IMG/VR virus record: IMGVR_UViG_3300006329_000010
Coordinates: 1 to 32,255 of that record
Direction: 5' to 3' (one strand)
Source of the DNA: a virus
DNA: 32,255 nt
Positions 110-17,138 of this stretch are shown one piece after another. The notes under the pieces are model-generated. The model saw nothing but the letters and a program-made list of their open reading frames with translations. It had not been told where the DNA came from and ran no database searches. Numbering within the stretch: position 1 is the stretch's first letter; the number at the start of each line of letters is the position of its first letter. Position numbers and translations under genes: made by a program.

Positions 110-295
110 ATGAGCGAATTTCAGGTAGCAGCAGATACATTCCCAATATGGAAAGCAGTCCTATGGATCTTTTATCCTATGGCAGCACTTGTAATGGTGG
201 AACTACTGCTACGTGGATTTGATGACGATGATGATGACGATGGTGGTAAGGGTATTAGAGTATCCAATTTACAAGCCGTCCCATCAGGTGCTTGA
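110..295 (+). CDS. small single-pass membrane protein with poly-Asp run
   Basis: A 61-residue protein of unknown function. Residues about 14-35 form one hydrophobic, probably membrane-spanning segment (WKAVLWIFYPMAALVMVELLL). It is followed directly by seven consecutive aspartates (residues 38-44) and a short polar tail ending VPSGA. The Asp run comes from alternating GAT and GAC codons, so it is a protein-level feature rather than a simple DNA slippage tract. The stop TGA is embedded in the -35 box of the next promoter (292-297). A role in the host thylakoid or cytoplasmic membrane fits the neighbourhood of psbA, but nothing in the sequence proves it. Confidence 0.75.
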   Translation: MSEFQVAADTFPIWKAVLWIFYPMAALVMVELLLRGFDDDDDDDGGKGIRVSNLQAVPSGA

Positions 296-320
296 CTAAG
301 AGTAGAAATACCTATATAAT
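292..320 (+). promoter_or_regulatory. sigma70-type promoter TTGACT-N17-TATAAT
   Basis: TTGACT at 292-297 and a perfect TATAAT at 315-320 are separated by an ideal 17-base spacer. The expected start near 327 gives a leader of about 17 bases before the ATG at 344. The -35 box contains the TGA stop of the preceding gene. The -10 box sits in the loop of the inverted repeat at 300-339, which suggests repressor binding or supercoil-sensitive control. Use by host RNA polymerase is inferred from the consensus match. Confidence 0.7.
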
Positions 321-339
321 ACTGTAAGTATTTCTACTC
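300..339. repeat. 12-bp perfect inverted repeat around a -10 box
   Basis: The left arm at 300-311 (GAGTAGAAATAC) is perfectly complementary to the right arm at 328-339 (GTATTTCTACTC), with a 16-base spacer that holds the TATAAT box. No T-run follows the right arm, so it is not a typical intrinsic terminator. An operator for a dimeric regulator is the most natural reading. Confidence 0.7.
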
Positions 340-343
340 AGTC

Positions 344-421
344 ATGACCCAAGTAATTCTATTCGTTTCAATTGTAGCAGTATACTTTTATAGCAATGTC
401 TCTCAATTCATTTTTGCATAG
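344..421 (+). CDS. 25-residue hydrophobic micro-ORF
   Basis: The ATG at 344 opens a 25-codon frame encoding MTQVILFVSIVAVYFYSN and a short tail, ending TAG at 419-421. Residues 3-16 are hydrophobic enough for one membrane helix. It is the first start codon after the promoter at 292-320, with a leader of about 17 bases and no clear Shine-Dalgarno sequence. It overlaps the next micro-ORF by 26 bases in another frame. Its size and shape resemble low-molecular-weight photosystem subunits, but it does not match one I recognise. Coding status is uncertain. Confidence 0.4.
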   Translation: MTQVILFVSIVAVYFYSNVSQFIFA

Positions 422-9544: not shown

Positions 9545-9568
9545 GTTAAACTCCATACTAAATACAAA

Positions 9569-9591
9569 GGGTCACAGAGTGACCCTTTTTT
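9569..9591 (+). terminator. intrinsic terminator after porin-like gene
   Basis: GGGTCAC (9569-9575), loop AGA, GTGACCC (9579-9585), then TTTTTT (9586-9591). A perfect 7-bp stem preceded by AAA. Confidence 0.92.
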
Positions 9592-17076: not shown

Positions 17077-17110
17077 CTCGTATATTATTCGACTTTTTGA
17101 ACAAGCAAAA

Positions 17111-17138
17111 CCCCCGAAAAAATCGGGGGTATTTTTTT
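17111..17138. terminator. bidirectional intrinsic terminator
   Basis: CCCCCGA (17111-17117), loop AAAAA, TCGGGGG (17123-17129), followed on the plus strand by T-A-T7 (17130-17138) and on the minus strand by TTTT (17107-17110). It separates the convergent gp32 operon and gp53-gp48 unit. Confidence 0.93.

Follow-up and report, generated by a model that had tools for sequence, protein, structure and literature searches.

What is the role of an inverted repeat that encloses a promoter and ends just ahead of a start codon? The question is raised by the first few hundred nucleotides of the window, by which we mean the whole analysed stretch of 32,255 nt (IMG/VR record IMGVR_UViG_3300006329_000010). 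This T4-like cyanophage fragment carries psbA at 1654–2736, and its nearest annotated DNA belongs to Prochlorococcus and Synechococcus phages. A first-pass annotation had reported a sigma70-type promoter, TTGACT-N17-TATAAT (292–320), with perfect 12-bp arms (300–311/328–339) and the upstream stop codon inside the −35 box. These coordinates were confirmed (Table 1); the stop is the TGA at 293–295, which ends the ORF 110–295. The −10 box, said to lie exactly in the loop, is indeed located inside it but does not fill its 16 nt. With one mismatch allowed, the arms reach 15 nt and form the longest inverted repeat within 60 nt in the window. Absent from the annotation were a lower stem, TGACT/AGTCA, and a downstream ATG frame of 25 codons. 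The ATG (344–346) follows the right arm, and its A belongs to the lower stem.

Table 1. Features of the promoter-containing inverted repeat and the adjoining genes (window coordinates)
Feature	Position	Strand	Remarks
Upstream gene, 61-aa protein, P-SSM2 T4-GC 273 type, phrog_7843	110–295	+	
−35 box TTGACT	292–297	+	TTGACA/T in nearly all relatives
Lower stem, 5′ side, TGACT	293–297	+	RNA fold; pairs with 340–344 after 2-nt bulge (298–299)
Left arm GAGTAGAAATAC, within promoter spacer	300–311	+	Conserved in relatives
Loop, 16 nt, with −10 box and predicted transcription start	312–327	+	15–20 nt in relatives
−10 box TATAAT	315–320	+	TATAAT/TATACT/TATAGT in relatives
Predicted transcription start, 7 nt past −10	327	+	Inferred from promoter geometry
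Right arm GTATTTCTACTC, leader of internal transcript	328–339	+	
Lower stem, 3′ side, AGTCA, includes A of start codon	340–344	+	RNA fold
Micropeptide gene, 25 aa, MTQVILFVSIVAVYFYSNVSQFIFA	344–421	+	Family 24–28 aa, dN/dS 0.34

Taken singly, neither the repeat nor the promoter is remarkable. In a window of the same composition, chance should produce 0.24 perfect 12-bp repeats with a 3–60 nt loop (28 of 200 shuffled sequences had one) and about two promoters with a score of 11/12 or better. What stands out is that the two occur together and that the arrangement is conserved; by itself, the window is no more than suggestive. A chance palindrome was ruled out by conservation in relatives, though the single-window statistic is weak. 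A search with the exact arms returned 8 IMG/VR contigs, and the loop was 16 nt long in each of them. The same element occurs in the isolate P-RSM6, and a compensated version of it in P-TIM68 (GTAAAAATAC...GTATTTTTAC). Searches with left-arm and right-arm patterns revealed more than 100 distinct related sites on marine T4-like cyanophage contigs.

All these sites share descent, so counts of them are not counts of independent events. Moreover, most were retrieved with arm patterns, and statistics on their arms are therefore biased. The exception is a set of loci that were retrieved by means of the upstream protein alone and filtered for a sigma70 promoter and a frame of 22–30 aa; it comprised 30 sites, of which one (L030), an unrelated chance match, was set aside. 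Both arms were at the expected place in 27 of the 29 remaining sites; in the other two (L085, L094), the left partner had moved and overlapped the −10 box. Loss of the arms beside a retained promoter, the outcome that the first-pass annotation had named as adverse, was not found in this set. Each of 6 large phage records held one copy of the element. A single near-match to the left arm in P-SSM2 (180808) had neither the right arm nor the micropeptide layout and was taken as chance. A pattern scan of 84,980 genomes gave one Clostridia contig and one contig labelled Rhodospirillaceae, and no match in cyanobacterial genomes. The site labelled Rhodospirillaceae (L254, PAQA01000006.1, 5119–5260) has promoter, arms, and micropeptide of the cyanophage type and is probably on a misbinned phage contig. 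A broad scan for further promoter-in-hairpin sites yielded mostly unrelated repeats, and positions 1–1700 had no Rfam match up to an E value of 1.

At nearly all related sites, the loop contains a near-consensus sigma70 promoter. Among 105 sites, the −10 box was TATAAT in 69, TATACT in 24, and TATAGT in 8; the −35 box was mostly TTGACA or TTGACT, at a spacing of 17–18 nt (17 nt in the window). The upstream genes vary, and their stop codon usually falls within the −35 box or the left arm. The symmetry of the region also suggested a bidirectional promoter with a shared −10 region and a leftward antisense RNA, and the window does have a weak overlapping minus-strand match, ATGACT-N18-TATTAT (9/12). 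In relatives, however, the forward promoter mostly scored 11–12/12 as compared to 7–10 for the reverse one, and the reverse −10 box is removed by the TATACT and TATAGT variants. We rejected this very improbable reading on reverse scores close to those of shuffled sequence (mean 8.0).

Several other elements were observed in passing. At L057, L060, and L070, the T4-GC 273 gene is followed by TTGACA and a late-like TTATAAATA motif, with no matching arms. Approximately 100 nt ahead of psbA, the window has a perfect consensus promoter without a hairpin, TTGACA-N18-TATAAT (1528–1557). Two symmetric hairpins that resemble terminators, with runs of T on either strand, are located at 9566–9588 and 17110–17130, the latter between convergent reading frames.

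At 103 of 105 sites, an ATG lies 2–8 nt after the right-arm core. The frame comprises 24–28 codons in every member of the codon-analysis set, and the predicted hydrophobic products form a single recognisable family (e.g., MPQLVFFGLVSAYLYFNGPISSIVFQ), with a dN/dS of 0.34 for 300 pairs. The micropeptide had no above-cut-off match among PHROGs or Pfam families, no CDS is annotated at its position in the P-RSM6 and P-TIM68 records, and tblastn and family searches found no relatives in annotated phages. No Shine-Dalgarno sequence is present in the leader. A second micropeptide type (MRLFYQTMFLAVIFLSAAYLPRFAYA, MTKLFYQLCFLALVFSSIAYLPRFAYA) is located behind the same promoter and hairpin at L135, L136, L109, L106, and L176.

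Folding predictions separated the two transcripts that the locus could give rise to. The predicted fold of the read-through RNA (285–375) has an energy of −26.1 kcal/mol (z −4.5, reached by none of 200 shuffled sequences) and places the AUG within the stem, whereas the RNA starting at 327, which according to promoter geometry lacks the left arm, is predicted to be open (−0.8 kcal/mol). The predicted cost of opening the start region of the window gene was 12.2 kcal/mol in the read-through versus 3.2 kcal/mol in the promoter-started RNA. The corresponding means for 45 non-redundant sites were 10.0 and 2.9 kcal/mol, and the median for the other genes of the window was 4.8 kcal/mol. Shuffling of just the part upstream of the predicted start resulted in a mean closure z of 2.68 (48 sites), with p ≤ 0.05 at 65% of the sites; at about a third, closure was not significant. 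At several sites behind hli genes, closure was independent of the left arm and was provided by other upstream sequence. At L064 and L174, the coding end of hli (GGTGTGATAGGTG) can pair with the 3′ end of the right arm and the ATG, which can be another way of hiding the start.

We compared these values with those of 12 related micropeptide genes that have no internal promoter between them and the preceding gene. This set was limited to family scores of at least 28 and excluded L093 and L031, which have a promoter with a weak −35 box, as well as a second, longer reading of L082. The promoter-less genes showed no closure, with a mean z of −0.65 versus 2.68 at the promoter sites (Mann–Whitney p 7e-7). 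Thus, the hairpin goes with the promoter and not with the gene.

This joint absence of hairpin and promoter is left unexplained if the stem is an RNA processing or 3′-end protection element, for instance an RNase III or RNase E site separating the upstream and micropeptide messages, with the promoter placed there by convenience. Such an element would agree with a stem that comes directly after the upstream stop codon and stays while the upstream genes differ. It does not explain a start codon 2–8 nt from the right arm, and no terminator-type U tract follows the stem. We regard this reading as improbable.

The conserved sequence layout, together with the predicted folds and the difference from the promoter-less relatives, points instead to a translational switch for a phage micropeptide, of the kind described for T4 e, soc, and I-TevI, with the promoter inside the hairpin and of sigma70 type instead of late type. 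We consider this reading probable. If, as we infer, RNA reads through from upstream, it would carry both arms, and the hairpin would bury the leader and the start codon and lower translation of the micropeptide. The promoter in the loop, if used, would start an RNA just before the right arm; such an RNA could not form the hairpin, would have an open leader of approximately 17 nt, and would be translated.

The arms allow this translational switch to be weighed against readings at the DNA level. Loop lengths in the relatives run continuously through 15, 16, 17, 18, 19, and 20 nt. At L220 and L250, the left arm (AGGTAAAAATAC) is located upstream of the −35 box, with the whole promoter in the loop, and the same right arm by the ATG is still paired. 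L218 is a weaker third case, in which the micropeptide start codon is apparently lost. Including L085 and L094, five relatives have a moved left arm, and the right arm keeps a partner. The first-pass annotation had proposed an operator-regulated switch with a dimeric protein bound to both arms. Retention of the arms in relatives shows that they matter and makes a switch plausible, but the dimer fits poorly with an inter-arm distance of 15–20 nt that does not follow helical turns and with the left arm upstream of the −35 box at L220, L250, and L218. A rigid dimer on one DNA face would not accommodate a loop that takes 15–20 nt.

In its broader form, with a host or phage dimeric protein on one or both arms blocking or shaping the open complex, a DNA operator would account for GTA and TAC at the arm ends, which are conserved past pairing needs, and for the −10 box and predicted start being flanked by the arms. 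A MarR-type factor of the Prochlorococcus podovirus P-SSP7 does act on a promoter (PMC9692554). Against it stand an inter-arm spacing that shifts by single bases, at odds with fixed helical spacing of half-sites, a left arm that can sit outside the promoter, and the single copy in each of the 6 large phage records, in which no regulon of many sites per genome was seen. In addition, the promoter-less relatives have no arms and an open start region. The operator is possible but unlikely, and we rank it second best after the translational switch.

The annotation had alternatively suggested that the promoter responds to supercoiling through cruciform extrusion, and the arms are indeed perfect over 12 bp and A+T-rich. 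A loop of 16 nt, however, disfavours cruciform extrusion. G-T and other arm mismatches are common in relatives, and the promoter-linked closeness of the start codon would be unexplained. We give this reading hardly any credence. Overall, an RNA-level switch explains more than either the dimer or the cruciform.

Compensatory changes in the arms of relatives, which the annotation had proposed to look for, were present (GTAGAAATAC/GTATTTCTAC, GTAAAAATAC/GTATTTTTAC, GTAATAATAC/GTATTATTAC). In 43 sequences, both sides were changed with pairing kept in 24 cells, a number reached in 0 of 500 shuffles, but these double changes were confined to 3 of the 12 pairs. RNAalifold detected no consensus structure in the alignment. 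Among 45 sites, the paired core (pairs 3–12) favoured G-U over A-C (17 vs. 2). We gave this asymmetry little weight as proof of RNA pairing, as the second outermost pair behaves oppositely, with more A-C mismatches than G-U, and column composition explains part of it. Since covariation is limited to 3 of 12 pairs, the arm sequence is conserved beyond pairing; the ends GTA...TAC hardly vary, and this holds also for the sites that were retrieved independently of arm patterns. Other causes may account for some of this conservation: the left arm doubles as promoter spacer and at some sites includes the stop codon of the upstream gene (TAG or TAA), and the right arm forms a leader rich in U, which may help ribosome loading.

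In the T4 genes e, soc, 49, and I-TevI, the fold of long early RNAs covers the ribosome binding site, and RNA from a promoter located between the two arms lacks the 5′ arm (PMC3014915, PMC2988022). The cyanophage element resembles these genes in having its 3′ arm at the translation start region, a predicted start to the right of the left arm, giving RNA without the 5′ arm, and an AUG region that is predicted to be closed by a stem, here with no Shine-Dalgarno sequence to sequester. It differs in that the T4 genes use a late promoter (TATAAATA) and are kept off early, whereas the promoter here is of sigma70 type, the gene encodes a micropeptide of 24–28 aa, and the timing may be reversed. An RNA hairpin and a local promoter likewise gate embedded genes in phage Aeh1 (mobE) and T4 (segB; PMC2988022), but these are homing endonuclease genes with late promoters and different arm sequences.

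The excerpted text of PMC2984593 describes the early promoters of the cyanomyoviruses S-PM2 and Syn9 as sigma70-like. The −35 and −10 boxes found here match the early type of that excerpt, which, unlike the present case, mentions no hairpin around the promoter. According to the same excerpt, sigma70-type promoters of T4-like cyanophages are thought to be read early by the unmodified host polymerase, and NATAAATA promoters late. The timing could therefore be reversed relative to T4. More tentatively, and with more doubt than confidence, we propose a widespread module of ocean cyanophages in which a membrane micropeptide is preceded by a sigma70 promoter in a start-hiding hairpin and the T4 logic is turned around, the gene being expressed while the host polymerase works from the early promoter and off upon later read-through. 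If the element is a translational switch, with either timing, the T4 hairpin switch would reach beyond phages of the E. coli type to cyanophages abundant in the ocean, and would include a promoter of sigma70 type. The analysis also exposed a conserved micropeptide gene family that is unannotated in the records of P-RSM6 and P-TIM68; as both phages carry the element, direct testing in infected Prochlorococcus is possible.

Some left-arm variants, TA[AGT]AAATA, resemble the late motif, and an exact TATAAATA is present in a minority of left arms. At L106, L113, L125, L144, L168, and L179, the left arm is GTATAAATAC, which includes this T4-type motif, and pairing is lost at that base. Early and late promoters may overlap at these six sites.
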